From positions 6,076,001-6,140,000 of the forward strand of contig NZ_CP082164.1 in assembly GCF_023101685.1 (NCBI RefSeq): a DNA stretch of 64,000 nucleotides, read 5' to 3'. Shown here piece by piece: positions 38,134 to 61,351 of the stretch (within the stretch, counting starts at the first letter, position 1; every line of letters begins with the position of its first letter). The notes under the pieces are model-generated. The model ran no database searches and was not told the origin of the DNA. It worked only from the letters and a program-made list of their open reading frames with translations. Source of the DNA: Bradyrhizobium sp. 186. Its GTDB lineage: Bacteria; Pseudomonadota; Alphaproteobacteria; Rhizobiales; Xanthobacteraceae. The translations under genes and the position numbers were made by a program.

Positions 38134-38880
38134 CTAACGCGTACGTTCCGGAAGGACGCTGTTGCGCTTGACGTCCTCGTCATTTCGAACTGCCGGATCC
38201 CGTTGTAGCAGGCCGGAGGGGTCGAGTTCACGTGGCGCTGCACGCTGCTCGTTTTGCGAAATCGCCAATGCCGCGAGAACTGTACGATTGCTGATATCCA
38301 GCTTCTGGAAGATGTGATGAAGGTGGACTTTGATCGTACCGTCGGAAATGTTCAGGCGACGCCCGATCTCCTTGTTGGACAGCCCCTCCGATACGAGGCG
38401 CATGATCTGCCGCTCCCGGTCCGTCAGTTGTGTCAGGGACTTCTCCTCACCTGCGCGAGGCTCCTCACTGACCTCCCCACCAGTGCTCGGCGAGCGCGAT
38501 GCCAGTCCTTGGCTCTGTGCAACCTTCCGCAGGGTCGCGACCAGCATCTCCGGCTTCGCATCCTTGGTGAGGACCACGCAGGCGCCGTCCGCGGCCTGCC
38601 TTTGCAACTCGCGATCGACGGCCTTACCGGCGAAGAAAATGACCAGGGTGCCCAGGCCCGCGGTGTTTGCGAGAGCAAGGAGGTCCGGTCGGCTGATGTC
38701 GGGCATTGCAATATCGACGAGCGCAATGTCCGGCACAAGAAGTCGGATTGCCTCAATGCAGCTTGCAGCATCGCCGCAGGAGCCCACGATCGTAAAATCG
38801 TGCTGCGTCGCAAGGACGCTGCTGATCCCCTGCAAAACGATCGGATGCCGATCCGCGATGACAATTCTGATGCGGCGCAT
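38134..38880 (-). CDS. NarL/FixJ-type response regulator with LuxR HTH
   Basis: A 248-residue protein from the ATG at 38878-38880 (MRRIRIVIADRHPIVLQGI); the frame opens a little earlier. The receiver domain (1-115) has the acidic pocket IADRHP, the phosphoacceptor-type D in ALVDIAMPD, and the switch lysine in VLTKDAKPEML. The C-terminal LuxR HTH (~155-215) reads LTDRERQIMRLVSEGLSNKEIGRRLNISDGTIKVHLHHIFQKLDISNRTVLAAL. No histidine kinase is adjacent, so it is an orphan regulator. It may control this accessory region; targets unknown. Confidence 0.92.
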   Translation of the reverse strand: MRRIRIVIADRHPIVLQGISSVLATQHDFTIVGSCGDAASCIEAIRLLVPDIALVDIAMPDISRPDLLALANTAGLGTLVIFFAGKAVDRELQRQAADGACVVLTKDAKPEMLVATLRKVAQSQGLASRSPSTGGEVSEEPRAGEEKSLTQLTDRERQIMRLVSEGLSNKEIGRRLNISDGTIKVHLHHIFQKLDISNRTVLAALAISQNEQRAAPRELDPSGLLQRDPAVRNDEDVKRNSVLPERTR

Positions 38881-39048
38881 GCTTCCCTTGCCTATTGCTA
38901 ACAACCCCCCGTGCGGCAGTTTAATCCAACGTTCTCTCTAGAGACGCGCGCGGGAGGCATAACGAATCCGTTCTGCCAAAACGTCGCACCGCCAAGTCCG
39001 CCACGGCACGTATCGGCAACGCTTGATGGCTGCGTCACCGTAACTCGC

Positions 39049-40968: not shown

Positions 40969-42048
40969 ATGACCGGAACCGAGGCCGGAGCAGCATTCAG
41001 GCACCTGCGACCAGGATTCTCACTGCCGCGTCTGCGAGCCCTGATGAGCCGTGCCGTTACGGAAACTCGCTTAGACCTTTCGGGACTAACAGTTCTCACC
41101 GAAGCTGCGACCGGCGCGTATGCCGTGACGGCCGTCCTCGCAGCGATGGCCGGAGGCAAGCGCGTCTATGCCTTCACGAGACCTACGCGGCACGGCACAC
41201 CAGCTGACGCCAGGCAACAGACTCTGGAGCTTGCAGATTCGGCCGGCGTGGCCGATCGCATCGAAGTCTTGGAGCAGATCACCCCGGATATCCTCCATCA
41301 AACGGATATTGTAACCAACAGCGGCCATCTTCGGCCTCTTACCGCTGCGCTCATTGATAAGCTACCAAGGGAGGCCGTCATTGCCTTGATGTTTGAGGCT
41401 TGGGAATTTCGCCCCGAGGACCTCGACATGGAAGCATGCTTACGGCGCGGAATTCCGATTGTCGGCGTGAACGAACGCCACCCGTCAGTCGATGTCTTCT
41501 CGTTTCTCGGTCCGCTGTGCGTGAAGCAACTCCACGATTGCGGTTTATCCGCTTACAAGAACCGCATTGCTGTGCTGTGTGACAACGACTTTGTTGGCCC
41601 GCTCCGCGCCGGTCTCGCGAGCTCTGGAGCGAGCGTGGACACGTTTGACAACGTCCAGGCTGTGTATCGCGACGAGTGGGACGCAATCATCGTCGCGCTG
41701 CGACCGGCGGCTGAGCCTCGTATCGGTTCGCCGGAAGCAATACACCTCGCGGCTTGCGCGCCCCCCGGTGCCATTGTCGTGCAGTTTTGGGGCGACATGG
41801 ACCGGACCGTATTGTCAGCAAATGGATTGGGCGTTTGGCCAACAGCGCCTCCGGGATTGGGGCACATGGGCATTCTCCTGTCGGAGATTGGCCCTGAACC
41901 GGTCGTGAGACTGCAGGCAGGCGGCCTCCGCGCGGCTGAGTGCGTTCGGCGCAGCAGAACTGTTTCGACTGACGGATTCGCGCAGATTGTTACTGAGACC
42001 ACCCCGACCGAGCTTCCGCCAATTCACACTAGGTCCTCGCCTCGATAA
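40969..42048 (+). CDS. unrecognised Rossmann-like protein in the FkbH cluster
   Basis: A 359-residue protein. Two Rossmann-like halves seem present: LDLSGLTVLTEAATGAYAVTAVLAAMAGGKRVYAFTR, then DIVTNSGHLRPLTAALIDKLP, and later KNRIAVLCDNDFVGPLRAGLASSGASVDTFDN followed by WDAIIVALRPAAEP. The layout recalls NAD-binding dehydrogenases such as S-adenosylhomocysteine hydrolase-like folds, but I cannot assign a family. Its last 20 bases overlap the convergent VOC gene. It may supply an oxidation step for a glyceryl unit loaded by FkbH, by analogy with methoxymalonyl-ACP pathways; that is inference. Confidence 0.65.
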   Translation: MTGTEAGAAFRHLRPGFSLPRLRALMSRAVTETRLDLSGLTVLTEAATGAYAVTAVLAAMAGGKRVYAFTRPTRHGTPADARQQTLELADSAGVADRIEVLEQITPDILHQTDIVTNSGHLRPLTAALIDKLPREAVIALMFEAWEFRPEDLDMEACLRRGIPIVGVNERHPSVDVFSFLGPLCVKQLHDCGLSAYKNRIAVLCDNDFVGPLRAGLASSGASVDTFDNVQAVYRDEWDAIIVALRPAAEPRIGSPEAIHLAACAPPGAIVVQFWGDMDRTVLSANGLGVWPTAPPGLGHMGILLSEIGPEPVVRLQAGGLRAAECVRRSRTVSTDGFAQIVTETTPTELPPIHTRSSPR

Positions 42049-42427
42049 GCTCGATGAGCGTGCGCGTCCCGGAGGCTAGAAACACGATACGACGCATGTC
42101 GAACGCGACTGCAGGCGCAGGTGACGATACGGGAAGATACTGCCGCGCCCTGAAGTAAGCGATTGCATCGTCGAGTTGGCTCACTTCGTAAGCAAGATGA
42201 TAAAATTTGCTGCCGCGCTTCAAAATACCCTCCACTGGCGATTGTGCGCCAGCCGGCTCGATCAATTCCAGGCGGGGACCGCCGCCTGACACGAACTGAA
42301 TCCGAACCTGCTGGATCGGATCCTCAAATATAGGTCCTTCGGGCCGGTAGCCAGCTATCGCGAGTTCCGGTAGCTCAACCGCAATCTGTCGGCACGCCAT
42401 TCCCAAATGATGAAAATGCAAATCCAT
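42029..42427 (-). CDS. VOC (glyoxalase-like) family protein
   Basis: A 132-residue protein, MDLHFHHLGMACRQ, with the VOC beta-alpha-beta modules: HHLGMAC (metal His at the start), the central RLELIEPAG (acidic ligand), KFYHLAYEVSQLDDAIAYF (second His) and RTLIELIE at the end. This arrangement is that of the methylmalonyl-CoA epimerase-like Glyoxalase_4 subgroup. Substrate unknown. Its ribosome-binding site and start codon are duplicated in tandem upstream (19-bp repeat at 42424-42461). It converges on the Rossmann-like gene, overlapping by 20 bases. Confidence 0.85.
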   Translation of the reverse strand: MDLHFHHLGMACRQIAVELPELAIAGYRPEGPIFEDPIQQVRIQFVSGGGPRLELIEPAGAQSPVEGILKRGSKFYHLAYEVSQLDDAIAYFRARQYLPVSSPAPAVAFDMRRIVFLASGTRTLIELIEART

Positions 42428-42461
42428 CTGCTATTCCTCCGTCCATCTGCTACTCCTCCTT
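42424..42461 (-). repeat. 19-bp tandem duplication of a translation initiation region
   Basis: Two adjacent copies of CCATCTGCTATTCCTCCGT-like sequence (42424-42442 and 42443-42461), each giving GGAGGA..AGCAGATGG on the minus strand. Thus the VOC gene has two Shine-Dalgarno/ATG units in tandem; the upstream ATG is out of frame by one base. Confidence 0.7.
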
Positions 42462-42756
42462 CCGTTGCGAGCTCAATAGCCACGCGTGCGTCGGGCCGGC
42501 GGATTGCTAGGCAAGAAAGAAGCCCTCGGCAGGAGCTAGAAATACCAGAGCTGTCGAGGTCTTTGCGACCACTCGCATTAAACAACACGAATTTCTGTCG
42601 GGCGCCCTCGCAGATAACAAGAAGCAAAGGGTCGGCGATCAACGCCCGGCCAATGAGGTGCTCCTGGACAGACAACAGGCTCCATCTTGTGAATCCGTCG
42701 CCTCCAGAAGCGCCGATACACTGCTCCCGCTAGTCTGGCGGAGTTGGTCGCGGCAG
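42428..42756. other. 329-base gap between VOC and GNAT genes
   Basis: Apart from the duplicated initiation site (42424-42461), I see no gene or repeat. The short frame at 42407-42733 (plus) is chance-like. Confidence 0.45.
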
Positions 42757-43380
42757 CTAACTTTCGCGCGCATCCAGGAGCAGCGCCGACCAGGCCTGTT
42801 TCAACCGCGGATAGTCTTCCCGCGACATCCGAAACGTAATTACGTCGTCGCCATTCCACCAAGCGTTGGGCGAGATCTTTTCGACTTGGAAACCCAGGCG
42901 AATATGGAAGTTCTTCGCGGGAGCATTCCTGCTTTGCACGTTGGCCACGACGGTTGAAAGCCCTAGCTGAGCGAACGCGAACGCGAAAAGCAGATCGAAA
43001 ACCTCGACCAGAAAGAGGCGCGCACCCGGATCGACGATCAATCGCGCCACCTCGCCGCATTTCGCCACGAGATCTAGGTTCGCAAGGGCGATGCTGCCGG
43101 CCGGTTTTTTCGAGCGCTTGAACTCGGCAATGAAATAGTAGTCGTCCGCCCTAGCCTGGTAGTTTCGGAAAAACTCTTCCTGCTGGGTCAACGTCAGCTT
43201 TTCTCGGGTCATGAACTTGCCGAGAACGGGATCGTTCCGCCAAGCGACGATTTGCGCGGAGTCCTCCAGCCGGATCTCTCGCAGGGCCAAGTTATTTCCC
43301 TCCGGAAGCCGTTGGAGATTCTCAGCCTTGGTGGAAAGGGTGGCCAAGCCCGGCGGCTCCAATCCCATATGCGCCGTCAT
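42757..43380 (-). CDS. GNAT family N-acetyltransferase (RimL-like)
   Basis: A 207-residue protein. The GNAT fold is visible: LALREIRLEDSAQIVAWRNDP (RimL-type opening), PAGSIALANLDLVAKCGEVARLIVDPGARLFLVEVFDLLFAFAFAQLGLSTVVANVQSRNAPAKNFHIRLGFQ, the last part being the acceptor-region motif of acyltransferases. Unusually, the Q/RxxGxA acetyl-CoA motif is weak (GARLFLVE), so CoA binding should be checked. Divergent from the FkbH gene across an AT-rich promoter region. It may acylate the product of the neighbouring ACP pathway. Confidence 0.82.
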   Translation of the reverse strand: MTAHMGLEPPGLATLSTKAENLQRLPEGNNLALREIRLEDSAQIVAWRNDPVLGKFMTREKLTLTQQEEFFRNYQARADDYYFIAEFKRSKKPAGSIALANLDLVAKCGEVARLIVDPGARLFLVEVFDLLFAFAFAQLGLSTVVANVQSRNAPAKNFHIRLGFQVEKISPNAWWNGDDVITFRMSREDYPRLKQAWSALLLDARES

Positions 43381-43404
43381 CTATTCATTATACCTTAATT
43401 CGAG

Positions 43405-43450
43405 GCATTTAAATATATTTAATTGACCTGAACGCTAGCATTATTTAGGT
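43405..43450. promoter_or_regulatory. AT-rich divergent promoter island between GNAT and FkbH genes
   Basis: ATTTAAATATATTTAATTGACC followed by TTATTTAGG within 46 bases. It is located between the starts of two divergent genes (43380 and 43517), so it probably contains both promoters. Confidence 0.5.
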
Positions 43451-43516
43451 TGAGTGACAATCAAATGATGCTGCTTTCCTTGGTGGAGGTTCGCTATTCT
43501 CGCTGCTGCACCCGTC

Positions 43517-45391
43517 TTGCCGGACCGGCACGTAAATGATGCCGAACTCAAGTCCTTGGCGCTATCCGGCGATGCCGCGTTCTGGGGACACCTCGCCGCC
43601 CGCTCGCGGCAAGCGGCGAGTTTTTCCGAACTGTTCTTTCTGTCGACGCTTCGAAAAAAGGCGAAGCTACCTACGACCGAAAGTGTCCAGCCAAAGCTCC
43701 GCCTCGCCTTGATCGGCGGCTACAACCTGTATCCGCTGCACGAACTGGTTGCACATCTCTTGGCTATTCGTGGTGTCGAGTGCGAACGCTTCCTCGGCGG
43801 GTACGATAATTTCGTCTCGGAAATCCTCGACGGCTCAAGCCCATTGTACGCCTTCAAGCCGGATCTCGCCTTCATTCTGCCGAACGCGAGTCACTGCCGG
43901 TTTTCCGGCTCGCTCCTCGATGCCGTGGAGCATCAGCGCGAAGCTGCAGTTGGCGCCGCGGAGCACCTCCTCAACCTCGCTCTGACTCTGATCGAGCGCT
44001 CGGATGCGGCGGTGATTCTCGCCAATCTTGCGCTGCCCGGCGACCTCGATCTCGGCTCGTTTCGTTCACGCACGCTTGTCGCCGATTGGAGTTTCCGCAA
44101 GGCGGTAAACCTTGAGCTCGGGCTCCGGGCCCCGGCGGGGGTGCAAATCTGCGACGTCGAGTTCCTCTCGGCACGCCGAGGGATCACGGCCGCGGAGGAT
44201 GCGCGAGCGTGGTACGAATCGAAGCAGCCCGGCTCACCTGATTTTCTAGTGGACGTCGCGCAAGAGCTAAGCCATCTGATCGCCTCCCGCAAGCAAGGCC
44301 CCAAGAAGGTGCTGGCCGTCGATCTGGATCACACGCTATGGGGCGGCGTGATCGCGGAGGATGGTATCGAGGGAATCGAGCTTGGCGACTCTTCTCCCCG
44401 CGGCGAAGCTTTCAAGGCCTTCCAGAAGTACCTCCTTGCGCTTTCCGAACGCGGCGTCCTGCTTGCGGTATGCAGCAAGAACGACCATGCGCGTGCGGTC
44501 GAGGTCTTCGAGAGGCATCCCGAGATGGTTCTCCGCCTGGAGCACTTCGCGGCCTTCAAAGCCAACTGGGATCCGAAGTCCGACAACTTGCAGCGGATCG
44601 CGGATGAGCTCCGCGTTGGCCTGGACAGCTTCGTCTTCGCCGATGACAACCCGGCCGAGATCGAGATCGTGCGCCAGTTTCAGCCCCTGGTCGAAGGCGT
44701 GCTCCTCGGGCCGGACCCCGCCGAATTCATCGGTCGCCTTCAGGCCGGACGCCATTTCGAGCCACGGAACGTCACAGAGGAGGATCTCGAGCGGACGGCG
44801 CAGTATAGGCAGGAACGGCGGCGTACGGAGCTCGCGGCGAGCGTGACCGACATGCCAGCCTATCTCGCCTCGCTGGAGATGAGAGGCACGATTAAGGAGT
44901 TCGACTCGCTCGACCTACCCCGCATTGCCCAGCTGATCGCGCGCAGCAACCAGTTCAACCTGACTACGGTCCGTCGATCCGAAACCGACATCCAGGGGCT
45001 CTTAAGAAGACCGGACTACCGGTGCTTCACGATGCGGCTCGAGGATCGGTTCGGTGATTCCGGGCTCATCTCTGTGGTCATTGCAAAGATCGAGGGCGGC
45101 GTCTTCGTTCTCGATACCTGGCTCATGAGCTGCCGCGTCCTTAAGCGCCAGGTTGAGGACGAGATCATGAATGAGATCTTTCGGCTTGCAGAGGTCGCCG
45201 GCTGCGCAAGAGTGCGCGGCATCTATCTTCCGACGGCCAAAAACGGGATCGTTGCCAGCATCTACGAGGAGTTTGGCTTCGTGCACACGGAAGACTCCGC
45301 CGCCCGAAAGGAGTTCGAGCTCAAGGTGGAGAAGTATCAGAGGCGTTCGACAAAGATCCGCGTAACCCGGAGGGCTTATGAAGCAAGCTGA
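43517..45391 (+). CDS. HAD-IIIC family FkbH-type enzyme (glyceryl-ACP forming)
   Basis: A 624-residue protein, with a TTG start placed at 43517; no in-frame ATG exists before the upstream stop, so the true start is uncertain. An N-terminal SGNH-like domain (~60-250: LRLALIGGYNLYPLHEL, LPNASHCRF) precedes the HAD domain with LAVDLDHTLWGGVI (nucleophile D269 and D271), CSKND and FADDNPAEIE. The C-terminus is GNAT-like (GDSGLISVVIAKIE ... YLPTAKNGIVASIYEEFGF). FkbH enzymes take 1,3-bisphosphoglycerate and load a glyceryl group onto an ACP. Its 3' end overlaps the ACP gene by 14 bases, a strong coupling sign. Confidence 0.9.
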   Translation: MPDRHVNDAELKSLALSGDAAFWGHLAARSRQAASFSELFFLSTLRKKAKLPTTESVQPKLRLALIGGYNLYPLHELVAHLLAIRGVECERFLGGYDNFVSEILDGSSPLYAFKPDLAFILPNASHCRFSGSLLDAVEHQREAAVGAAEHLLNLALTLIERSDAAVILANLALPGDLDLGSFRSRTLVADWSFRKAVNLELGLRAPAGVQICDVEFLSARRGITAAEDARAWYESKQPGSPDFLVDVAQELSHLIASRKQGPKKVLAVDLDHTLWGGVIAEDGIEGIELGDSSPRGEAFKAFQKYLLALSERGVLLAVCSKNDHARAVEVFERHPEMVLRLEHFAAFKANWDPKSDNLQRIADELRVGLDSFVFADDNPAEIEIVRQFQPLVEGVLLGPDPAEFIGRLQAGRHFEPRNVTEEDLERTAQYRQERRRTELAASVTDMPAYLASLEMRGTIKEFDSLDLPRIAQLIARSNQFNLTTVRRSETDIQGLLRRPDYRCFTMRLEDRFGDSGLISVVIAKIEGGVFVLDTWLMSCRVLKRQVEDEIMNEIFRLAEVAGCARVRGIYLPTAKNGIVASIYEEFGFVHTEDSAARKEFELKVEKYQRRSTKIRVTRRAYEAS

Positions 45392-45620
45392 AGTACTGGC
45401 GAAGTTGCAGGAGGTATTCGACGGCATCTTCCTTGAGAAGGTCGCGGCCAAGCCCGAGCTGTCGGCGGCCGACGTCGAGGAGTGGGACTCGCTCATCCAG
45501 ATCTCGCTCGTCATCGCCGTCGAGCAGAAGTTTCGCGTGCGATTCCGCGTTGGCGAAGTCGAGGCGGCCCGGAACCTGGGTGAGTTCGCCGACCTGATCG
45601 CGAAACGGATGGAGCCATAA
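45378..45620 (+). CDS. acyl carrier protein (partner of FkbH enzyme)
   Basis: An 80-residue protein with the carrier-protein four-helix pattern and the phosphopantetheine site EEWDSLIQISLVIAVEQKF (S38). Starts 14 bases inside the end of the FkbH gene with AACCCGGAGGGCTT upstream. Proteins of this kind receive the glyceryl unit as a thioester. It is not the fatty-acid AcpP, since the surrounding genes are not fatty-acid genes and the sequence is diverged (VEEWDSL rather than DLGADSLD). Confidence 0.9.
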   Translation: MKQAEVLAKLQEVFDGIFLEKVAAKPELSAADVEEWDSLIQISLVIAVEQKFRVRFRVGEVEAARNLGEFADLIAKRMEP

Positions 45621-45944: not shown

Positions 45945-48900
45945 GTGGCTGTCACTCTGTTCACCACCCAAGCGCCCTCCATCACCAATGCCACCGACGG
46001 GACAGGGGCGGATTATGAGCTGGGCATGCGCTTCTCCAGCGACACGTCCGGCGAGATCCAGGCGATCCGGTACTACAAGGCCTCGAACGAGACCGGCACC
46101 CATATCGGCCACATCTGGTCGGCAACGGGCCAGGAGTTGGCGACGGTCACGTTCACCAATGAAGGCGCTTCGGGCTGGCAGCAGCAGGCGCTCGCCACCC
46201 CGCTCACCATCGCGGCCGGCACGACCTACGTGGTCTCGGTCAATATCAACAGCTACTACGTCTCCACCCCGCAGGGCTTCGCGTCGGGCATCAGCAATGG
46301 TGGCCTGAACGCTCCGGCCGGCGCCGGCGTCTTCGACTACAGCGCGGGCGTCTTCCCGACCACCGTCTATCAGAATACAAACTACTTCCGCGACGTCGTG
46401 TTCGCTGCTAGCTCGACCAAACCCAACAATCACCCCGGCACGGTAAGCGTCAGCGGGACCCCGACGCAGAACCAGACGTTGACCGCGACGGTGAGCGATA
46501 CGGACGGAGTGCCCGGTACCATCTCGTATCAGTGGCAACAGAGCACGAACGGCAGCACGTGGACCAACATCACTGGCGCGACCGCGAAAACGCTGACCCT
46601 GGGGCAGGCCCAGGTCGGCAACTTCATACGCGCCACGGCCTTCTACACGGACCTGCTGGGCAGCAGCGAGACTCCGGTGAGCGCCGCGACCGCAACGACA
46701 GTGGCCAACGTCAACGACGTCGGCGTCGTCACGATCAACGGCACGGCGACCCAGAACCAGACGCTGACGGCCAGCGTCACGGATCCTGACGGCGTCCCGG
46801 CGAGCATCACCTATCGATGGCAGAGCAGCCCCGACGGCACCACGTGGACGAATCTCGCCACCACAACATCGAGCCTCACCCTCGACAGCAGCCTGGTCGG
46901 CAAGCGCGTCCGGGTGAACACCACCTACACCGACCAGCTCGGCACCAGCGAGAACGTGACCAGCGCGGCCACCGCGACGGTTGCAGCTGCGAGTTCCGGC
47001 ACCACTCTGTTTACCACCCAGGTCCCCGTCCTGACCAACAACACGGATGGGATAGGGGCGGATTATGAGCTGGGGATGCGCTTCACCAGCGACACGTCCG
47101 GCGTGATCCAGGCGATCCGGTACTACAAGGCCTCGAACGAGACCGGCACCCATATCGGCCACATCTGGTCGGCCACCGGCCAGGAGCTGGCGACGGTCAC
47201 GTTCACCAATGAAGGCGCCTCGGGCTGGCAGCAGCAGGCGCTCGCCACCCCGCTCACCATCGCGGCCGGCACGACCTACGTGGTCTCGGTCAATATCAAC
47301 AGCTACTACGTCTCCACCCCGCAGGGCTTCGCGTCGGGCATCAGCAATGGCGGCCTGAACGCTCCGGCCGGTGCCGGCGTCTACGACTTGACAAAAGGCA
47401 TTTTTCCGACCGCCATCTATCAGAATACAAACTACTTCCGCGACGTCGTGTTCGCTGCTAGCTCGTCAAATCCCAACAATCACCCCGGCGCGGTGAGCGT
47501 CAGCGGGACGCCGACGCAGAACCAGATTTTGACCGCGACGGTGAGCGATACGGACGGAGTGCCCGGTACCATCTCGTATCAGTGGCAACAGAGCACGAAC
47601 GGCAGCACGTGGACCAACATCACTGGCGCGACCGCGAAAACGCTGACCCTGGGGCAGGCCCAGGTCGGCAACTTCATACGCGCCACGGCCTTCTACACGG
47701 ACCTGCTGGGCAGCAGCGAGACTCCGGTGAGCGCCGCGACCGCCACGACAGTGGCCAACGTCAACGACGTCGGCGTCGTCACGATCAACGGCACGGCGAC
47801 CCAGAACCAGACGCTGACGGCCAGCGTCACGGATCCTGACGGCGTCGCGGCGAGCATCACCTATCGCTGGCAGAGCAGCCCCGACGGCACCACGTGGACG
47901 AATCTCGCCACCACAACATCGAGCCTCACCCTCGACAGCAGCCTGGTCGGCAAGCGCGTCCGGGTGAACACCACCTACACCGACCAGCTCGGCACCAGCG
48001 AGAACGTGACCAGCGCGGCCACCGCGACGGTTGCAGCTGCGAGTTCCGGCACCACTCTGTTTACCACCCAGGTCCCCGTCCTGACCAACAACACGGATGG
48101 GATAGGGGCGGATTATGAGCTGGGGATGCGCTTCACCAGCGACACGTCCGGCGTGATCCAGGCGATCCGGTACTACAAGGCCTCGAACGAGACCGGCACC
48201 CATATCGGCCACATCTGGTCGGCCACCGGCCAGGAGCTGGCGACGGTCACCTTCACCAACGAAGGCGCCTCGGGCTGGCAGCAGCAGGCGCTCGCCACCC
48301 CGCTCACCATCGCGGCCGGTACGACCTACGTGGTCTCGGTCAATATCAACAGCTACTACGTCTCCACCACCCAAGGCTTCGAGTCCGGCATCAGCAATGG
48401 TGGCCTGAACGCTGCGGCCGGCGCCGGCGTCTACAACTCCACCGGCGGCGCCTTCCCCACCGCCGTCTATCAGAACGCAAACTACTTCCGCGACGTCGTG
48501 TTCGCCCCAGCCAACGTCATCTCACTACTTAACAGTTCCACAATCTATGTCAGCGAAGCGGCGGGCACAGCCACGATCACCGTCGCGCGCTCTGGCGACC
48601 TTCAGTCTCAAACGACCGTGGAGTATACGACGAATGAAATCGGCACCGGTGACACGGCTACGGCGGGACTGGACTACACCCAGCCCACGTTCAATGGTCG
48701 AACGAACACCGGCCAGATCGTCTTCGGACCCGGGGAGAGCACCAAGAGCTTCACCATCCCGATTGTGAACGATCAGCTCACCGAGGGCACTGAGACGTTC
48801 GCTGTCGGGCTTCAGAATCCCAGTTCCGGCTCCCTTGGAGCCCCCCGTACTGTGCTCGTCTCCATCGTCGACGACGACTCACCCATCTCCATCGCAATGG

Positions 48901-50591
48901 CGGACGCCGCCGTGAGCGTTGCCGAGAGCACACCGACAGCGACGATCACGCTGCTGCGCAGCGGCAATGCCAGTCAAGCTGCCACGGTCGGCTTCACAAC
49001 AAGTAACGGCAGCGCGGTCTCGGGATTGGACTACACAACCACGTCCGGCACGGTGACCTTCGCCGCTGGCCAGGTGACCCAGACCATCACGGTCCCAATC
49101 ATCAACGATACGACACCGGAGAGCGACGAGACCTTCACGGTCACCTTGAGCAACCCGACGGGCGCCACTCTCGGCGCACAGGCGACGACGACAGTGAAGA
49201 TCCTGGATAATGACAACCCCGACCTCGGCAATTTGGTGGGCCAGACGGCCGTGACAGGGCTGAATGAACCAACGGCGATCGATTGGACTCCCGACGGCCG
49301 CTACATGCTCGTCGCGCAGAAGGACGGCGTGGTGCGCGTGGTGGACAACGGCACCCTGCGATCTACGCCGCTCATCAACCTGTCGAGCGAGGTAAATGAC
49401 GTCAGCGATCGCGGACTGCTGGGCATCGCGGTGAACCCAAATTTCTTCGCAGGCAGCCCCTATGTCTACCTGCTCTACACCTACGATCCGCCTGAGACGG
49501 CGGGCCAGACGGGCCTCGCAGGACCCGATCAGGCCGGAAACCGACCTTCTCGTCTGGTGAGGGTGACTGTCGACCCTACCACCATGGTCGCCGATCCGGC
49601 GAGCGAGTTCGTGCTGGTCGGCAAGAACAGCAATTGGGCGTATACGAGCCGTCCGGACTTGGACAGCAACGGCGATCCCAGCATTCCTCCATCAGGTATC
49701 GTCAACGGCACCACCATAACGGCGCCCGCCAGCCAGATAGAGATCGGAGCGCAGGACAACGATCCGAACCACGACGGGGTTCAGAATCAAAACATTCGCG
49801 ACTATCTGGCGTCGGACGGCGATTCGCATACCATCGGTGCCGTTCATTTTGGCCCTGACGGCTATCTCTACCTCACCGTCGGCGATGGCACGTCATATAA
49901 TTTCGCGGACCCTCGCGCAGTGCGGGTCCAAGACATCCACAATCTCTCCGGCAAGCTGCTGCGGATCGACCCGAGCACAGGTGAAGGAGCGCCCGGAAAT
50001 CCATTCTATCAGGCCAGCGATCCCAACAGTAATCAGTCGAAGGTCTTCTACTACGGCGTTCGCAACTCTTATCGCTTCAGTTTCGATCCGGTCACCAATC
50101 TGCCCGTGCTCGGAGATGTGGGTTGGGACAGCTGGGAGGAGCTCGATACCGGCCCGGCCGGATCGAACTTCGGATGGCCCTATCTCGAGGGTCCGAACAA
50201 AACCGCCAGCTACCAGGACCTCGCCCAGGCGATCACCTTCTACAACAATGGCAACCGCAACAATACGACCGACCCGCCTGCCGTAGCTCCCATCCTAGCT
50301 GAGAGCCACGGTGCTCCGGACAATTTCCACGTGATAACCGCGGGAGATTTCTACAACCAGAACATCATTTTCTTCGACGATGTCTACAACGGAACGATCT
50401 TCGCTGCGACCTTGAACGCAAGCCGGCAAGTTGCCAGCGTCCAGTTGGTGGACAACAACGCACCAGGCATCGTCGACCTGCAGAAGGGCCCCGACGGATG
50501 GCTCTACGGAGCCGATATATTCGATGGCACGATCCGACGTTGGGTTGACCCCTCAGCCGCCCCCGCTTTGGGGCTCGCGGTGGGGTCCTGA
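45945..50591 (+). CDS. giant DUF4082 / Ig-like / Calx-beta / sugar dehydrogenase-propeller protein
   Basis: A 1548-residue protein from a GTG start with GGGGGAG upstream. Order of domains: DUF4082 (~3-155), two Ig-like domains (~160-350), DUF4082 (~353-505), two Ig-like domains (~510-700), a third DUF4082 (~703-855), two Calx-beta domains (~858-980 and 981-1092) and a C-terminal six-bladed glucose/sorbosone dehydrogenase-type beta-propeller (~1093-1548: GLNEPTAIDWTPDGRYMLVAQKDG, HTIGAVHFGPDGYLYLTVGDG, LRIDPSTGEGAPGNPFY). No signal peptide and no RTX tail, so its export route is unclear; type I secretion is likely given the locus. The propeller may bind PQQ and a sugar. DNA repeats of 1050 bp are described separately. 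Confidence 0.9.
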   Translation: MAVTLFTTQAPSITNATDGTGADYELGMRFSSDTSGEIQAIRYYKASNETGTHIGHIWSATGQELATVTFTNEGASGWQQQALATPLTIAAGTTYVVSVNINSYYVSTPQGFASGISNGGLNAPAGAGVFDYSAGVFPTTVYQNTNYFRDVVFAASSTKPNNHPGTVSVSGTPTQNQTLTATVSDTDGVPGTISYQWQQSTNGSTWTNITGATAKTLTLGQAQVGNFIRATAFYTDLLGSSETPVSAATATTVANVNDVGVVTINGTATQNQTLTASVTDPDGVPASITYRWQSSPDGTTWTNLATTTSSLTLDSSLVGKRVRVNTTYTDQLGTSENVTSAATATVAAASSGTTLFTTQVPVLTNNTDGIGADYELGMRFTSDTSGVIQAIRYYKASNETGTHIGHIWSATGQELATVTFTNEGASGWQQQALATPLTIAAGTTYVVSVNINSYYVSTPQGFASGISNGGLNAPAGAGVYDLTKGIFPTAIYQNTNYFRDVVFAASSSNPNNHPGAVSVSGTPTQNQILTATVSDTDGVPGTISYQWQQSTNGSTWTNITGATAKTLTLGQAQVGNFIRATAFYTDLLGSSETPVSAATATTVANVNDVGVVTINGTATQNQTLTASVTDPDGVAASITYRWQSSPDGTTWTNLATTTSSLTLDSSLVGKRVRVNTTYTDQLGTSENVTSAATATVAAASSGTTLFTTQVPVLTNNTDGIGADYELGMRFTSDTSGVIQAIRYYKASNETGTHIGHIWSATGQELATVTFTNEGASGWQQQALATPLTIAAGTTYVVSVNINSYYVSTTQGFESGISNGGLNAAAGAGVYNSTGGAFPTAVYQNANYFRDVVFAPANVISLLNSSTIYVSEAAGTATITVARSGDLQSQTTVEYTTNEIGTGDTATAGLDYTQPTFNGRTNTGQIVFGPGESTKSFTIPIVNDQLTEGTETFAVGLQNPSSGSLGAPRTVLVSIVDDDSPISIAMADAAVSVAESTPTATITLLRSGNASQAATVGFTTSNGSAVSGLDYTTTSGTVTFAAGQVTQTITVPIINDTTPESDETFTVTLSNPTGATLGAQATTTVKILDNDNPDLGNLVGQTAVTGLNEPTAIDWTPDGRYMLVAQKDGVVRVVDNGTLRSTPLINLSSEVNDVSDRGLLGIAVNPNFFAGSPYVYLLYTYDPPETAGQTGLAGPDQAGNRPSRLVRVTVDPTTMVADPASEFVLVGKNSNWAYTSRPDLDSNGDPSIPPSGIVNGTTITAPASQIEIGAQDNDPNHDGVQNQNIRDYLASDGDSHTIGAVHFGPDGYLYLTVGDGTSYNFADPRAVRVQDIHNLSGKLLRIDPSTGEGAPGNPFYQASDPNSNQSKVFYYGVRNSYRFSFDPVTNLPVLGDVGWDSWEELDTGPAGSNFGWPYLEGPNKTASYQDLAQAITFYNNGNRNNTTDPPAVAPILAESHGAPDNFHVITAGDFYNQNIIFFDDVYNGTIFAATLNASRQVASVQLVDNNAPGIVDLQKGPDGWLYGADIFDGTIRRWVDPSAAPALGLAVGS
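45954..48510 (+). repeat. 1050-bp near-identical tandem repeats within the giant gene
   Basis: Units begin at 45954, 47004 and 48054 (exact 1050-bp spacing = 350 codons). Each encodes DUF4082 plus two Ig-like domains; the third stops after DUF4082. Long stretches are identical at DNA level (for example 46561-46700 against 47611-47750), even at synonymous sites, showing recent duplication or gene conversion. Confidence 0.92.
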
Positions 50592-53086: not shown

Positions 53087-53701
53087 TCATGCACTTGGCC
53101 GACTAATCGTCACCCACAGGCGATGATCGTTGGGTATCTGCACGCGAACCCAGTGATAGGGCGTCTTGGACCACGGTTTGATCTGCGGCGTGAGATTGTC
53201 GAGGACGAGATCGCCGCTCCAGGTCCGCACGAGAAGCACCAAATGATGCTCTCCGGAACTAACGACGACCTCGCTCAATAGCAGGGCCCGCGCGGGCCAG
53301 CCGCGTTGCAGCAGTTCATGACGCTTGCTCACTGCGTAGTCGTTGCAATCACCGCGATCGGGGTTAACGATCCACTCCTCACCTGCAAGGCCAAGTTCAT
53401 TAGGCTGCGGAGCAATGGCGCGGTTCACGGCGCGATTGACTGCTTTCAGCTCCGCCCACCGTTCCTTCGTCAACCGGAGCGGCCCGCCGCGGAAGGAGCG
53501 CCGCGGGCGACATTCGGCCTCATAGCGCAGGCAAAACACCGTGTAAGTAACGGGCGGAAGCGTCGGGCGTCCCAACTCGATGTGCTGATTGACTGCTCGC
53601 CGCGTCGCCGGCAGGGCGATGCGCCCTGCGCCCGCCCATTGAATTCCTCCGATCATGATAGCGAGCGCCGCCGCGACGACTGAGCCGTAGGTGCGATACA
53701 T
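53087..53701 (-). CDS. transglutaminase-like cysteine protease (BTLCP, LapG-like)
   Basis: A 204-residue periplasmic protein from the ATG at 53699-53701 (MYRTYGSVVAAAL); the frame is open to 53743. Signal peptide 1-26. The catalytic triad is visible: Cys119 in RGDCNDYAV, His152/His153 in SGEHHLVLLV, and Asp168 in LVLDNL. Bacterial transglutaminase-like cysteine proteinases include LapG, which trims type I-secreted adhesins from the surface under c-di-GMP control. Here no LapD-like receptor or LapA-like N-terminal module is seen. It is a good candidate for processing a surface protein of this locus, as inference. Confidence 0.9.
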   Translation of the reverse strand: MYRTYGSVVAAALAIMIGGIQWAGAGRIALPATRRAVNQHIELGRPTLPPVTYTVFCLRYEAECRPRRSFRGGPLRLTKERWAELKAVNRAVNRAIAPQPNELGLAGEEWIVNPDRGDCNDYAVSKRHELLQRGWPARALLLSEVVVSSGEHHLVLLVRTWSGDLVLDNLTPQIKPWSKTPYHWVRVQIPNDHRLWVTISRPSA

Positions 53702-54111
53702 CTGCCGATCCCCTCGCAAAAGCCAAACTGAGGCTCGGATCAACTGGCGGCGCGGAGACGTTTACTACCGCGGCAACGATATTCTCGTTTAAACGTATTT
53801 AAATTTAACGATTAATTCAATAAAATAAAATAAATTAATAATTAATTTTATCGAGAGCGCTGATACCGCCACGACCTGGTGCGCGCGTAGACGCATGTCG
53901 ACGAATCCTGCAATCGAACCGCTACCTGCACACCGAGCGCCGGTGACGGCCACATCGCCAACTGCGAGGCCGCTCGGCGTGGCCGCGGGCCTTGACCCTC
54001 AGAATTAAGGCAACAATTTAGCGATTCTGGCGATTTAATCGTTGATTAAATGCGACCACTCGGCAAATCGTATTCCGAACGGCCTCTCCTGCCTCAGGAT
54101 CGAGATTGCAC
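53702..54111. other. 410-base gap with the longest AT-rich island
   Basis: Bases 53,783-53,852 are almost pure A/T (TTTAAACGTATTTAAATTTA, TAAAATAAAATAAATTAATA), upstream of the BTLCP start. Likely its promoter and a binding site for AT-binding silencers. No gene is recognised in the gap. Confidence 0.55.
53783..53852. promoter_or_regulatory. long AT-rich island upstream of the BTLCP gene
   Basis: About 70 bases of nearly continuous A/T with TTTAAAT and ATTAAT units; the strongest of several such islands. In a genome that is otherwise GC-rich, this is the type of DNA bound by H-NS or MucR-like proteins. Confidence 0.55.
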
Positions 54112-57942: not shown

Positions 57943-58160
57943 GAGCTCGGTGCTCGTTGATACCAAGCCCCGAGTACTGGTGCACTCGGGGCTGTGTCAT
58001 TTCGTGTCCGCCAAAGACTCAGCGCTCCTTAAACGCGCGCTCCGCCTGATCGTGCAGCGGCTTGAGCAGGTAAGACAGCGCGGTTCGACCTGCCGTCTTG
58101 ATGAAGACTTCGACCGGCATGCCGGGCAGTAGCTTGGCCGACCCGAGTTTCGCCAGCTCT
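57943..58160 (-). repeat. 3' end of hlyD, intact partner of the 57076-57295 copy
   Basis: This stretch (end of the intact hlyD plus the following 75 bases) matches 57076-57295 in the same orientation. Spacing is about 865 bp. The two copies flank the oxygenase gene as direct repeats. Confidence 0.85.
57966..57993 (-). terminator. hairpin after hlyD
   Basis: AGCCCCGAGT/ACTCGGGGCT stem, 28 bases in total, 26 bases beyond the hlyD stop on the minus strand. No strong T-run follows, so termination strength is uncertain. A diverged copy sits at 57099-57129. Confidence 0.5.
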
Positions 58161-59332
58161 TCCGGCTTCAGCAGGACGCGGCCCGTGTAGTAGCTCGTGC
58201 CGGCGCGCTGATCCTGTGTAATGTCGGCCGAGACCATGCTGACCTCTCCGTCGATTTCGGGGGTGGTCTTCTGGTTGAAGGCGGCGAAGCGCATCGTCGC
58301 GGTCTGCCCCATATAGACCTGGTCGATATCGCGCGGTGCGATCTTGACCTCAACCGCAAGCGAGTCCGCATCGGGCACGATCAGCATGATCTGCTCGCCA
58401 GGAGAGATTACGCCTCCAACCGTGTGGACGCTCAGCTCGTGGACGCGGCCGGTTTGCGGTGCCCTGATATCGATCCGATTCAGTTGATCGACCGCCGCAG
58501 TCTTGCGCTCGCTCAGCTCGGAGAGTTTCGACCGCGTTTCGATCAGATCCTTGCCGACTTCCGTCCGCAGGTCCTGGTCGATCTGAATGATCTGGAGTCC
58601 GATTTCGGCAATCTTGCCCTTCGACTGAGCGATCATTCCTGCCAACTGGCTACGCTCGCCTTCGAGGCGGGCGGAATCGCGCTCGAGGGAGTTGAGCCGC
58701 GTGATCGGCACCAGACTTTTTTGCCAGAGACTGCGCACGCCTTCCAGCTCCTGGCGGATAAATTCGACTTCCTTCTGCTTGGCCTCGGTCTGTCCCGTGA
58801 GGCCCTTGATCTCGTTTTCCAGCTGCGCGCTTTTCTCCTGCAACTGCGCTTTTTGGCCGCTCCTCGCCTGACGACGCAGGTCAAACAGCTTCCGCTCCGC
58901 TGTGATTGCACGGCTCGCCTCGGAGTTACTCTCCCTGGCCCGGTCGAGCAGCACCTTGGGAAAAGTAGCCTGCTCGGCGCCATCGCGCTCGGCCTCGAGA
59001 CGAGCCTGCCGCGCGAACAGCTCGTCGAGGCTGTTTGTGACGATCGTCGCATTCGCGAGCGTCTGGGTCTCGTCGAGGCGAATCAGAATGTCCCCTGCAT
59101 TGACCCGGGCGCCCTCCCGCACGCGCAACTCTCCGACGATCCCACCAGTGGAATGCTGAACCTTCTTGACGCTCGAATCCACCACGACCACGCCTTGGGC
59201 GATCACAGCACCCGACAATTGGGTCGTTGTCGCCCAACCGCCGATCCCGAAGGTTACCAAACCGAACATGATCATACCGACGATCATGTAACGCTGGATG
59301 GATTGCATCGCCGGTGCCACCAGACCGTTCAT
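58019..59332 (-). CDS. type I secretion periplasmic adaptor (HlyD family)
   Basis: A 437-residue protein from the ATG at 59330-59332, overlapping the exporter gene's stop as ATGA. A single N-terminal membrane helix (~10-38: YMIVGMIMFGLVTFGIGGW), a biotinyl/lipoyl-like barrel (GVVVVDSSVKKVQHSTGGIVGELRVREGARVNAGDILIRLDET), a long alpha-hairpin coiled coil (~115-300) and the second barrel half with GRVHELSVHTVGGVISPGEQIMLIVPDADSLAVEVKI. It is the membrane-fusion protein bridging the ABC exporter and the outer membrane TolC-like channel. PrsE/HlyD type. Confidence 0.95.
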   Translation of the reverse strand: MNGLVAPAMQSIQRYMIVGMIMFGLVTFGIGGWATTTQLSGAVIAQGVVVVDSSVKKVQHSTGGIVGELRVREGARVNAGDILIRLDETQTLANATIVTNSLDELFARQARLEAERDGAEQATFPKVLLDRARESNSEASRAITAERKLFDLRRQARSGQKAQLQEKSAQLENEIKGLTGQTEAKQKEVEFIRQELEGVRSLWQKSLVPITRLNSLERDSARLEGERSQLAGMIAQSKGKIAEIGLQIIQIDQDLRTEVGKDLIETRSKLSELSERKTAAVDQLNRIDIRAPQTGRVHELSVHTVGGVISPGEQIMLIVPDADSLAVEVKIAPRDIDQVYMGQTATMRFAAFNQKTTPEIDGEVSMVSADITQDQRAGTSYYTGRVLLKPEELAKLGSAKLLPGMPVEVFIKTAGRTALSYLLKPLHDQAERAFKER

Positions 59333-61263
59333 CGGCTGCCTCCTTGAGCTTCCGCGACGACCTTGAGCGGTACGGGATTTCGCAACACTTTCTTGAGAAC
59401 CTCCTCTCTCTTGCCGAAGGACTGAACCCTGCCTTCGCCGAGGCACAAGACATGGTCCACACCCTCCAGCGCCTTCGGACGATGCGCGACCACGGCGACA
59501 ATTCCTCCCCGCCGGCGCACGTTCAGGATCGCCTCGGTCAAGGCATCCTCGCCCTCGGCATCGAGATTGGAAGAGGGCTCATCAAGTACGACCAGGAACG
59601 GCTTGCCGTAAAAGGCACGCGCGAGCCCGATGCGCTGCCGCTGCCCCGCCGACAGCGCCAACCCTCCCTCGCCGATCTTCGTGCTGTAGCCGTCCGGAAG
59701 CGAGAGGATGAGGTCATGAGCGCCCGCAGCATGCGAGGCTTCCAGAACAGCGGCAGCCGTTGCCTCCGGGTCGAACCGTGCAATGTTCATTGCAATGCTG
59801 CCGTCGAATAATTCGACGTCCTGGGGTAGATAACCGATGTGCTTGCCGAGGGCATCCGAAGACCAGTGATCGAGCGCGGCGTTGTCGAGCCGGATCCTGC
59901 CTCGAATGCACGGCCACACTCCCACCAGCGCACGTGCCAACGTCGATTTGCCGGATCCGCTCGGACCAATGATTCCAACCGCCTGCCCGCTCCGCAGCTG
60001 GAACGACACTTCGCTGAGGGTGGGCCTCTCGGCGTTTGGGGCGCCGATATAGAGGTGCTCGGCGGTCAGGGTTTCGACGGGCGCAGGCAATGCCAAGCGC
60101 TCCTCCTCGTCAGGCAGAAGCTTCAGCAAGCGATCGAGCCGTTGCCCCGATTGCCGCGCGACGACGAATCCTTTCCAGTTCGCAATGGCCATTTCGACAG
60201 GCGCCAGTGCCCGCGCGGTGAGAATCGATCCGGCAATGATGATGCCGGCGGTCGATTCCTGGTTGATGACGAGGACGGCGCCAACGGCAAGAACCAGCGA
60301 TTGCAAGATCGCGCGAAAAATCTTGGAGGCGCCACCGAGTCCGTTTGCGACATCGCTGGCCCGCTCATGGGCGGCGAGATACTTCGCGTTGACGTCCCGC
60401 CAACGTAAGGCCGCCTGTTGCCGCATCCCCATGGCCTGCAGAACTTCGGCATTTCGCCGTCCCTCGAGCGCAAGGGCAGTTCGCGAAACGGCCAGACGCG
60501 AGGACGCCTTTGCCGGCCCTCGGGTGCGCGTTTCCGTGAGCATCGTGATACCGACCAGCACCAGCGCGCCGGCCAGCGCAGTGACGCCGATCCAGAAGTG
60601 AAAGAGGAAGCAGACGCCGAGATAGATTGGCATCCAGGGCAGATCAAAGAGTGCCGTCGGCCCTCCGCTCGACAGGAAGCTACGGACCTGATCAAGGTCC
60701 CGCACCGGCTGCAGGCCATCGCCATCGGCCCGGGTCTTGAGAGGCAGGCGAACAAGCGCGTCGAATATACGAACACCGAGCGTTTCATCGAAATACCGCC
60801 CGACCCGGGCGCTGATCCTGTTCCTGACGAGGTCGAGCCCGCCCTGAAACAGATAAAGCACCGTCGCCAGAACTATCAACCCGATCAGCGTCGGTATGCT
60901 GCGCCCGGGCAGCACCCGATCATAGACTTGCAGCATGAAAAACGAGCCGGTGAGCATGAGGAGATTGCTCATCCCGCTGAAGGCCGCGAGAGCCCAGAAA
61001 ACCCGGCGGCATGACCGCAGGAAAGCCGACAGCTCTGACTGCGACTCCTCATAGTGGTCCGCCGGCCCGGGTCGACGAGCGAATATCCGTTGCCGCAGGG
61101 CTTCGACCGAGCGCCTTGCCCAGCCGATCAGTCGCGGCGTGCGCAGTTCGGCGTCACCCGCCCACTGTCGTCCGGCCGCCCAGAGTCCTGACAAATGCAG
61201 AAGTGAGATTCGATAAAGATTCGCAGGCGGGGGGATCACCCCCCGCCGTCCAAAGTCAGTCAT
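59329..61263 (-). CDS. type I secretion ABC exporter (permease-ATPase, PrsD/HlyB-like)
   Basis: A 644-residue protein from the ATG at 61261-61263 (MTDFGRRGV); the frame opens 13 codons earlier. Transmembrane domain with six helices (~80-330: LMLTGSFFMLQVYDRVLPGRSIPTLIGLIVLATVLY). Nucleotide-binding domain with Walker A GPSGSGKST (~432-440), signature LSAGQRQRIGLARAF, Walker B FLVVLDEPSSNLD and the H-loop VVAHRP. No N-terminal C39 peptidase domain, so it is of the RTX/PrsD type rather than bacteriocin exporters. It probably exports the RTX-type protein encoded just upstream. Confidence 0.95.
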   Translation of the reverse strand: MTDFGRRGVIPPPANLYRISLLHLSGLWAAGRQWAGDAELRTPRLIGWARRSVEALRQRIFARRPGPADHYEESQSELSAFLRSCRRVFWALAAFSGMSNLLMLTGSFFMLQVYDRVLPGRSIPTLIGLIVLATVLYLFQGGLDLVRNRISARVGRYFDETLGVRIFDALVRLPLKTRADGDGLQPVRDLDQVRSFLSSGGPTALFDLPWMPIYLGVCFLFHFWIGVTALAGALVLVGITMLTETRTRGPAKASSRLAVSRTALALEGRRNAEVLQAMGMRQQAALRWRDVNAKYLAAHERASDVANGLGGASKIFRAILQSLVLAVGAVLVINQESTAGIIIAGSILTARALAPVEMAIANWKGFVVARQSGQRLDRLLKLLPDEEERLALPAPVETLTAEHLYIGAPNAERPTLSEVSFQLRSGQAVGIIGPSGSGKSTLARALVGVWPCIRGRIRLDNAALDHWSSDALGKHIGYLPQDVELFDGSIAMNIARFDPEATAAAVLEASHAAGAHDLILSLPDGYSTKIGEGGLALSAGQRQRIGLARAFYGKPFLVVLDEPSSNLDAEGEDALTEAILNVRRRGGIVAVVAHRPKALEGVDHVLCLGEGRVQSFGKREEVLKKVLRNPVPLKVVAEAQGGSR

Positions 61264-61351
61264 GGCATCCGCCCTTGAAACATGCCTCGGAAGATCCCCC
61301 AAGAGATCCCCGAGGCAGTTGTGAGTACTAATCTTGTGGTTGGCCCATCCC

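Follow-up and report, generated by a model that had tools for sequence, protein, structure and literature searches.

Four neighbouring genes in a 64,000-nucleotide stretch of Bradyrhizobium sp. 186 (contig NZ_CP082164.1, positions 6,076,001 to 6,140,000; the whole stretch is called the window below) look like a small assembly line, in which glyceric acid would be placed on a carrier protein and then on a surface-bound amino sugar. Judged from sequence, the probability that the FkbH-family protein, its acyl carrier protein (ACP) and a GNAT make an N-glyceroyl amino sugar for a surface glycan is roughly 0.7. Relatives seem to replace this glyceryl tagging, at the same chromosomal spot, with a formyl-adding enzyme, so that one can speak of glyceryl and formyl cassettes. 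The functional unit would be FkbH-ACP-GNAT, with or without a VOC protein, serving an amino-sugar locus outside the window; the fifth gene, R359, would be its tightly coupled, unexplained partner. We regard this as a new combination of known parts and not as a categorically new system.

The genes concerned, in a genome of 10.77 Mb, are the following.

40969..42048, + strand: R359, an unclassified two-Rossmann-domain protein of 359 aa, constant member of both cassette types
42029..42427, - strand: VOC (PF13669), methylmalonyl-CoA-epimerase-like, candidate glyceryl-thioester epimerase
42757..43380, - strand: GNAT (PF13302), candidate amino-sugar N-glyceroyltransferase
43381..43516, no strand: divergent GNAT/FkbH intergenic region of 136 bp (from the gene coordinates), presumed promoter region
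43517..45391, + strand: FkbH-family HAD-IIIC protein (TIGR01686), predicted glyceryl loader
45378..45620, + strand: stand-alone ACP, overlapping FkbH by 14 nt; Ser38 of its DSL motif is the presumed phosphopantetheine site

All five open reading frames proposed in an earlier, sequence-only reading of the window are where it placed them, including the 14-nt overlap between FkbH and ACP. Purifying selection acts on each (dN/dS 0.16-0.30 for R359 and 0.09-0.18 for VOC over 8 orthologous loci; 0.15-0.24 for GNAT, 0.11-0.13 for FkbH and 0.05-0.51 for ACP over 11), and they therefore look like real genes. That reading had also treated them as one compact cluster. The adjacency is real, but the five are neither one unit nor one operon. 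R359 and FkbH-ACP lie on the + strand and GNAT and VOC on the - strand, which rules out a single operon, as does the absence of the VOC between R359 and GNAT in genomes G167, G262 and G399 (it was also not found in G204, where the assembly breaks). The VOC, present in 10 of the 14 FkbH-type genomes, is thus optional; FkbH, ACP, GNAT and VOC occur without R359 in genome G291; and R359, for its part, is also found with a formyltransferase or in a run with sugar genes.

Loader, carrier and transferase

FkbH-family proteins take glycerate from 1,3-bisphosphoglycerate and load it onto an ACP as glyceryl-S-ACP. The window's FkbH scores 304 bits against NCBIfam TIGR01686 (cut-off 146.65) and 20.7 bits, below the cut-off of 27, against the Pfam FkbH N-domain. 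It has the HAD nucleophile motif DxDxT (D269, D271, T273) and C539, a C-terminal-domain cysteine that we take to be a catalytic position. In an alignment of seven FkbHs, including one from a polyketide locus (L109) and three from surface-type loci, these four residues, S320, K321 and D376-D377-N378-P379 are identical in all seven. The ACP matches the Pfam PP-binding domain weakly (18 bits, cut-off 20.8); its DSL serine, Ser38, is conserved in 12 of 12 loci compared, and an ACP stands beside FkbH in all 14 FkbH-type genomes. The earlier claim of a glyceryl-loading FkbH overlapping its own ACP is therefore borne out as to family membership and overlap, and glyceryl loading is predicted from them.

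The labels GNAT and VOC also hold, both proteins scoring above the cut-offs of their Pfam families. The GNAT reaches 51.8 bits against PF13302 (cut-off 25.4), and so has the GNAT fold, and 50.8 bits against the PseH equivalog, below its cut-off of 93.1. FdhC (5kta) is its only relative in the PDB at E <= 1e-3 (E 2.3e-6), and we take FdhC to be a sugar N-acyltransferase of Acinetobacter nosocomialis.

A degraded FkbH remnant, 78% identical over residues 491-614 and broken by two stops, lies at G328:C54:803447-803818, in a genome that has the DegT/Gfo sugar genes and no R359 match.

Glyceryl and formyl cassettes within the genus

Our survey of the genus covered 242 genomes, with R359 accepted at E <= 1e-30, and found R359 in 24 of them. 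FkbH at 89% identity or above occurs in 14, always with an R359 at least 83% identical, and a GNAT at least 80% identical occurs in exactly these 14. The other 10 R359 genomes, whose R359 is 69-71% identical, are exactly those carrying a formyltransferase of at least 83% identity; none of the remaining 218 has a GNAT, FkbH or formyltransferase at those identities. Linkage in other genomes, on which the sequence-only reading had staked its proposal, is thus conserved. The best PDB relatives of the formyltransferase are ArnA (3.5e-30) and a GDP-perosamine N-formyltransferase entry (1.7e-22).

The two cassette types share flanking genes, which in the window are given below with the gene directly downstream of the ACP (all from Pfam).

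38134..38904, - strand: LuxR-type response regulator, left flank marker at both cassette types
45945..50591, + strand: DUF4082/Calx-beta/GSDH protein of 1548 aa, directly downstream of the ACP, possible secreted surface protein
53087..53743, - strand: BTLCP peptidase (C93), right flank marker at both cassette types
58019..59446, - strand: HlyD membrane fusion protein of a type I secretion system, right flank
59329..61302, - strand: ABC transporter of the type I secretion system, right flank

Among the named long-flank loci, the LuxR gene is present at 8 of 8 glyceryl-type and 5 of 5 formyl-type sites, C93 at 4 of 8 and 5 of 5, and HlyD at 3 of 8 and 5 of 5. The ABC gene, present in the window and at 5 of 5 formyl-type loci, was found at none of the 8 other glyceryl-type loci; the sequence of some of these stops short of the right-flank genes, and others may lack them. 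We read this as one chromosomal site that would hold either of two alternative acyl cassettes, glyceryl or formyl. Such a natural swap at one locus supplies matched strains for asking what the acyl group does.

An amino-sugar locus beyond the window and the proposed pathway

A neighbouring surface locus had been suggested before, and an amino-sugar/Wzx-Wzy locus does lie a short way beyond the window's right edge. Searching the genome with DegT gave two strong matches 16-22 kb outside the window on that side. The stretch in question (L122/L123, from 63001 in the window's numbering) encodes GT2, GT4, a polysaccharide deacetylase, Wzy_C, DegT, an Alg14-like protein and an SDR, and further on a second DegT, a hexapeptide acetyltransferase, Wzx, Gfo/Idh, a second type I secretion pair and a DUF4082 protein of 2424 aa.

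Orthologues of DegT (at least 74% identical) and Gfo/Idh (at least 65%) occur in the same 45 of the 242 genomes, among them all 24 with R359 (hypergeometric P 4.7e-21, not corrected for relatedness). Where R359 and DegT share a contig they are 17.5-42.4 kb apart in 18 of 19 genomes; in the remaining 5 R359 genomes they are on different contigs. The closest model for the Gfo/Idh protein is UDP-GlcNAc 3-dehydrogenase (165.8 bits against a cut-off of 450), and the island's DegTs resemble PseC, ArnB and LegC, all below the NCBIfam cut-offs. Among the partners of R359, the second DegT has perosamine synthetase and ArnB as its best PDB relatives, and the first has QdtB and WbpE among its best; the SDR is nearest to nucleotide-sugar epimerases/dehydratases, and Gfo/Idh to Gfo/Idh oxidoreductases.

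The pathway we propose would begin with FkbH, which would take glycerate from 1,3-bisphosphoglycerate and form glyceryl-S-ACP on the overlapping ACP. Where present, the VOC protein would act on the glyceryl thioester before transfer, perhaps by epimerisation at C2. The GNAT would then pass the glyceryl group from the ACP to a nucleotide-activated amino sugar, at a free amino group, so that an N-glyceroyl sugar results. This sugar would be made by the Gfo/Idh-DegT-SDR-DegT-hexapeptide-acetyltransferase set, roughly 16-25 kb past the window's right end, and the acylated product would be built into the Wzx/Wzy polysaccharide of that locus. By homology the sugar may be a 3-acetamido-4-amino (tri-amino-type) 6-deoxyhexose nucleotide acylated at N4, which is the weakest step of the scheme. 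Sister strains would place a formyl group on what is probably the same amine, by means of an ArnA-like formyltransferase at the same chromosomal site.

This scheme is built on the family membership of FkbH, its conserved catalytic positions, co-occurrence, the swap and the context of the locus, all read from sequence; from there we infer glyceryl loading, transfer from ACP to GNAT, the identity of the sugar, the epimerase role of the VOC and any reaction of R359. As to the targets suggested earlier, a glycan or a protein of the surface locus, a surface glycan is the most likely, with an amide on an amino sugar likelier than decoration of a protein or a finished polymer.

R359

R359 had been described as an unrecognised Rossmann-like protein, and it remains one: the fold consists of two Rossmann domains, by comparison with 2-hydroxyacid dehydrogenases, SAHH and shikimate dehydrogenase, and searches reaching E 10 in Pfam and E 1e-3 in NCBIfam give no match. 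A GxGxxG/A dinucleotide loop is missing: the 54-member consensus has TEAATGAYA at its first strand-helix turn and CDNDF at its second. A PDB profile search returned weak matches, the best at E 0.063, with quinate/shikimate dehydrogenase at E 0.82. Two further identities were considered. A GT-B glycosyltransferase, which would likewise have two Rossmann-like domains, is not found by title, the only item compared, among the Foldseek or VIA matches listed (50 each). A FolD-like supplier of formyl-folate to the formyltransferase was dropped because R359 also occurs without any formyltransferase.

The family, with 1768 matches among 7999 scored candidates, is unannotated; the named genomes with an R359 more than 80% identical are all Bradyrhizobium. 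Two of 120 listed relatives carry Pfam domains of a second protein: P0098 is a fusion of hexapeptide acetyltransferase and R359, and P0108 one of R359 and formyltransferase. Three others (P0022, P0103 and P0120, in alignment A1) have an extra N-terminal stretch of roughly 60 residues.

A search for conserved neighbourhoods of the 359-residue protein, which had been put forward as a check, was run over 39 loci from named genomes and further loci of the genus, and three settings recur. The glyceryl type is that of the window. The formyl type consists mostly of a 2OG-Fe(II) oxygenase followed by R359 and the formyltransferase. The third setting, seen in 13 of the 39 loci (Methylopila, Kaistia, Paracoccus, Chelatococcus and others), has hexapeptide acetyltransferase, Gfo/Idh, DegT, SDR, DegT and R359 in one run, with the SDR present in 12 of the 13 by tblastn. 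Flavobacterial metagenome-assembled genomes have Gfo/Idh, SDR and DegT near R359, together with an acyltransferase that looks NeuD-like by eye. One should bear in mind that gene calls made by the simple codon-score method missed real genes (R359 at several loci, the VOC in G291), and absence from those gene lists is therefore weak evidence. In the proposed pathway R359 would be an enzyme or accessory of amino-sugar synthesis, coupled to the acylation step.

The VOC protein

The VOC protein scores 48.3 bits against PF13669, above the cut-off, and 27.1 bits against the methylmalonyl-CoA epimerase equivalog TIGR03081, far below its cut-off of 114.95. H7, E54, H77 and E126, presumably the His/Glu metal-ligand pattern, are invariant in seven of seven aligned VOCs. 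The nearest PDB entries (E 1.6e-20) are named glyoxalase/lactoylglutathione lyase and, we assume, come from C. acetobutylicum.

A VOC profile, A4, was scanned over 162 genomes of the class and 184 of the phylum, samples that share some genomes, with limits of 1e-12 and 1e-16; 92 class-sample and 46 phylum-sample genomes gave a match. Besides the window's own VOC, seven matches reach 85 bits or more. FkbH stands in the neighbourhood of four of these (G565, G550, G620 and G682), G686 has ACP and MBOAT and no FkbH, and G592 and G639, of one genus, have none of these. Among 40 lower-scoring loci that were fetched (27 from the class scan and 13 from the phylum scan), FkbH lies within about 1.5 kb in none, and we provisionally take these VOCs to be ordinary epimerases. 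Among plasmid records, a separate VOC match in Aureimonas is a methylmalonyl-CoA epimerase beside its mutase. A housekeeping methylmalonyl-CoA epimerase was rejected as the identity of the window's VOC, since the high-scoring A4 matches are mostly near FkbH or ACP and the lower-scoring ones are not. Because A4 was built partly from loci chosen for their FkbH/ACP neighbours, the scan is supportive rather than independent.

A VOC adjoins FkbH or ACP in L126, L128, L137, L169 and L193, and in L108, L168, L190 and L194 one lies in the same gene run, a few kb from FkbH or ACP. The VOC is thus a recurrent partner of FkbH/ACP and perhaps a glyceryl-thioester epimerase. A class I methyltransferase often accompanies FkbH, ACP and VOC (L168, L169, L128, L190, L193 and L194), which suggests O-methylated glyceroyl groups at such loci; there is none among the window's five genes.

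FkbH-ACP loci at other sites and alternative explanations

The same combination recurs at a distant locus, L128 of genome G291, where FkbH, ACP, GNAT and VOC are adjacent and co-directional and are followed by a methyltransferase. Within about 6 kb on the opposite strand are Wzx, DegT and FdtA (PF05523, 196.5 bits). Aligned with the window's proteins, the GNAT is 24% and the VOC 47% identical, and G291 has no R359 match at E <= 1e-30; we read L128 as an independent recurrence. At L169 (genome G550), ACP, FkbH and VOC are accompanied by a methyltransferase and by an unclassified protein, GNAT-like by eye and unmatched in Pfam; next to them are NeuB, a cytidylyltransferase and other genes that by eye resemble a nonulosonate set.

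Of the 53 genus genomes whose FkbH matches all stay below 89% identity, 10 were read for their wider context. An MBOAT-like gene is near FkbH in seven of these distant loci (L129-L133, L136 and L137; Pfam confirms MBOAT for one of the seven), mostly with ACP, and a GNAT like the window's in one. In the nine loci besides L128 an ACP was called in eight (not in L132); in L134 the ACP neighbours a DegT, in L137 it neighbours a VOC, and L135 shows nothing but FkbH and ACP. Further afield there are MBOAT, ACP and FkbH on pSymB of S. meliloti, where rkp/capsule export genes lie a few kb away; ACP-FkbH-MBOAT with a VOC on a Rhodobacteraceae plasmid; HAD-IIIC, ACP and a WcbI-family acetyltransferase on a Niveispirillum plasmid; and ACP-VOC with exosortase and an XrtA-type polysaccharide deacetylase on an Acidobacteriota plasmid. 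Some of the stretches fetched play little part here: L170 and L171 were outside the analysis, L124 and L125 were gene-called only, and L195 gave no match.

The MBOAT loci, those of the genus and that of S. meliloti alike, are what one would cite for O-glyceroylation, in which the glyceryl group would end as an ester on a polysaccharide, presumably as in ACP-FkbH-MBOAT loci. We consider this unlikely for the window: none of its 22 proteins scanned with Pfam is an MBOAT, the transferase of the cluster is a cytosolic-type GNAT, and the enzyme that takes its place in the swap is nearest to sugar N-formyltransferases.

Transfer of the glyceryl group by the GNAT to an amine of a protein, the DUF4082 protein downstream being one candidate, is less likely still. 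In the window, as in all 8 other glyceryl-type long loci, the ACP is indeed followed by a DUF4082 gene, and PF13302 also holds protein acetyltransferases; however, in the 5 formyl-type long loci R359 and the flanks are present with no such DUF4082 gene, the one solved relative of the GNAT, FdhC, is presumably a sugar enzyme, and the G291 module lies near FdtA, DegT and Wzx.

Supply of a polyketide synthase (PKS), with glyceryl-ACP either oxidised and methylated to methoxymalonyl-ACP for a PKS elsewhere or condensed into a tetronate, is very improbable. FkbH with a stand-alone ACP is the classic start of both routes, according to the accessible parts of PMC3679948 and PMC7489565, and an FkbH relative on a Methylosinus OB3b plasmid (L109), our PKS contrast, does sit beside type I PKS genes. 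Among the window's five genes, however, no FkbD/FkbI-type dehydrogenase or O-methyltransferase is matched by Pfam or NCBIfam (these five being the genes searched); R359 has a dehydrogenase-like fold and matches no family. The 13 ketosynthase matches in the whole genome never lie in an open frame above 460 aa (the scan did not include nonribosomal peptide synthetase domains), so there is no modular PKS in the genome as far as that scan reaches; and R359 next door tracks the amino-sugar genes in 24 of 24 genomes. PKS or methoxymalonate use was rejected on gene content and the ketosynthase scan, which agree with the sequence-only reading both in the lack of a PKS nearby, now extended genome-wide, and in the lack of the two dehydrogenases and the O-methyltransferase of the usual methoxymalonyl-ACP set.

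Just as improbable is that FkbH-ACP and GNAT-VOC are unrelated neighbours merely sharing a variable island, as divergent transcription and the failure to find the VOC in 4 of 14 genomes might suggest, given that GNAT and FkbH orthologues co-occur in 14 of 14 and that the same four kinds of gene are adjacent and co-directional in G291.

Known systems and points against the proposal

Bacterial amino sugars and polysaccharides are known to carry glyceroyl groups, and several systems resemble parts of the N-glyceroyl amino sugar pathway proposed here. The FkbH step of methoxymalonyl-ACP formation (FK520, bafilomycin, tetromadurin) shares the HAD-IIIC FkbH with its catalytic Asp and Cys positions and the stand-alone ACP; the window differs in lacking matches to the dehydrogenases and O-methyltransferase and a modular PKS, and in having a GNAT and a VOC. 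FdhC and PseH, the closest solved and named relatives of the window's GNAT, have its fold and use acyl-CoA donors, whereas the window's GNAT, only weakly similar, presumably uses glyceryl-ACP. ArnA-N/WbkC-type N-formyltransferases are closest in the PDB to the enzyme that replaces FkbH-ACP-GNAT in 10 of 24 genomes; they transfer formyl from formyl-folate in one enzyme, where the window would use loader, carrier and transferase. That logic is also the logic of the Dlt system (DltA-DltC-DltB: loader, carrier protein, transferase), which resembles the ACP-FkbH-MBOAT loci of Bradyrhizobium; in the window, by contrast, a soluble GNAT would do the transfer, and the predicted acyl group is glyceryl. 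The glycerate-utilisation operon of tetronate pathways likewise has FkbH and ACP (accessible parts of PMC7489565), and in the window's cluster neither a FabH-like condensing enzyme nor an acyltransferase/dehydratase pair could be recognised.

A chemical parallel is the dimethylglyceroyl-pseudaminate (DMGA) modification of Campylobacter jejuni, for which our comparison draws on literature alone and on no C. jejuni sequence; the statements that follow refer to the accessible parts of the two papers. Flagellin of strain NCTC 11168 carries a 5-(2,3-di-O-methylglyceroyl)amino-nonulosonate linked to Cj1295 (PMC3068675). Compared with 11168, strains 12664, in which the fkbH-domain gene cj1302 is a pseudogene, and 12661, without cj1301 ('annotated as an epimerase'), lack the dimethylglyceric-acid sugars, and the authors do not connect the missing genes with the missing sugars (PMC7099621). 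These data fit the glyceroyl amino-sugar proposal by analogy. Shared with the pathway proposed for the window are a glyceroyl amide on an amino sugar and fkbH-domain and 'epimerase' genes, which are broken or absent in strains without it; the sugar differs in being an O-methylated nonulosonate on flagellin, and the fkbH gene is unassigned in those parts of PMC3068675 and PMC7099621. In the open literature searched, no enzyme set is proposed for a glyceroyl donor and FkbH is not assigned to sugar acylation; the accessible parts of PMC13130089 and PMC13317340 have nothing on FkbH.

Several observations weigh against the proposal. The window's GNAT is below the PseH cut-off and only distantly FdhC-like; GNATs normally use acyl-CoA, and an ACP donor is assumed here. 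With MBOAT as the nearby transferase in 7 of 10 distant loci, FkbH-ACP is not specific for amide transfer. In the 13 loci of the third R359 setting, tblastn found no formyltransferase, GNAT or FkbH, and R359 is therefore not bound to those acylation modules outside the genus; a named genome (L011) with an R359 88% identical has no searched acylation gene before its contig ends. R359 is absent from 21 of the 45 DegT/Gfo genomes, and in G258 R359 and the DegT lie far apart on one contig. C93 was not found in 4 of 8 and HlyD in 5 of 8 glyceryl-type long loci, some of whose stretches may end early, and linkage within one genus is partly common descent. The sugar-set proteins fall below every listed NCBIfam cut-off, which makes the exact sugar a guess. 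Lastly, C. jejuni strains 12664 and 12661 are set apart from 11168 by further genes as well, and the modification there also requires Cj1295.

A wider version, which we hold only tentatively and at less than even odds, would make FkbH-ACP-VOC a general glyceryl donor system of bacteria for surface glycans, with plug-in transferases: a GNAT would form amides on amino sugars, an MBOAT would form esters, and a methyltransferase would give O-methylglyceroyl groups. The VOC would be a glyceryl-S-ACP C2 epimerase, and R359 a new enzyme family acting on the amino-sugar nucleotide next to the acylation step. Such an epimerase would explain L-glyceryl groups arising from a D-glyceryl loader; L-glyceryl (L-glycerate) groups have been reported for gellan. 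Should the proposal be true, a domain known from antibiotic biosynthesis would have a recurrent second life in surface-glycan chemistry, and the origin of the Campylobacter dimethylglyceroyl sugars and of gellan L-glycerate would become directly testable.

Other features of the window

Three further genes near the right edge deserve mention.

54265-55917: IS66 transposase in the island, on the window side of the right edge (Pfam)
L122 3972-5708: IS66 transposase in the island, beyond the right edge
61352-63781, - strand: W_rich_C and bacterial Ig domain protein of 809 aa, adjoining the type I secretion genes

The two transposases are perhaps relevant to cassette exchange, and the 809-aa protein is likely a secreted substrate of the adjoining type I secretion genes. 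The 1548-aa DUF4082 protein belongs to a cluster (c11) common to 8 loci, the window counted in. Large repeat proteins of the DUF4082 kind, which also carry Calx-beta, GSDH, cadherin-like or DMFA2_C domains, adjoin type I secretion genes at several R359 loci in and outside Bradyrhizobium (window 45945-50591; L123 11871-19145; L035; L046).

Upstream of R359 there are two small proteins, at 37061-37594 (- strand) and 40278-40559 (- strand), with similar N-termini (RRxFLK, and later a segment ending STSLTSxAIA) and Gly-rich tails, which look like paralogous exported peptides.

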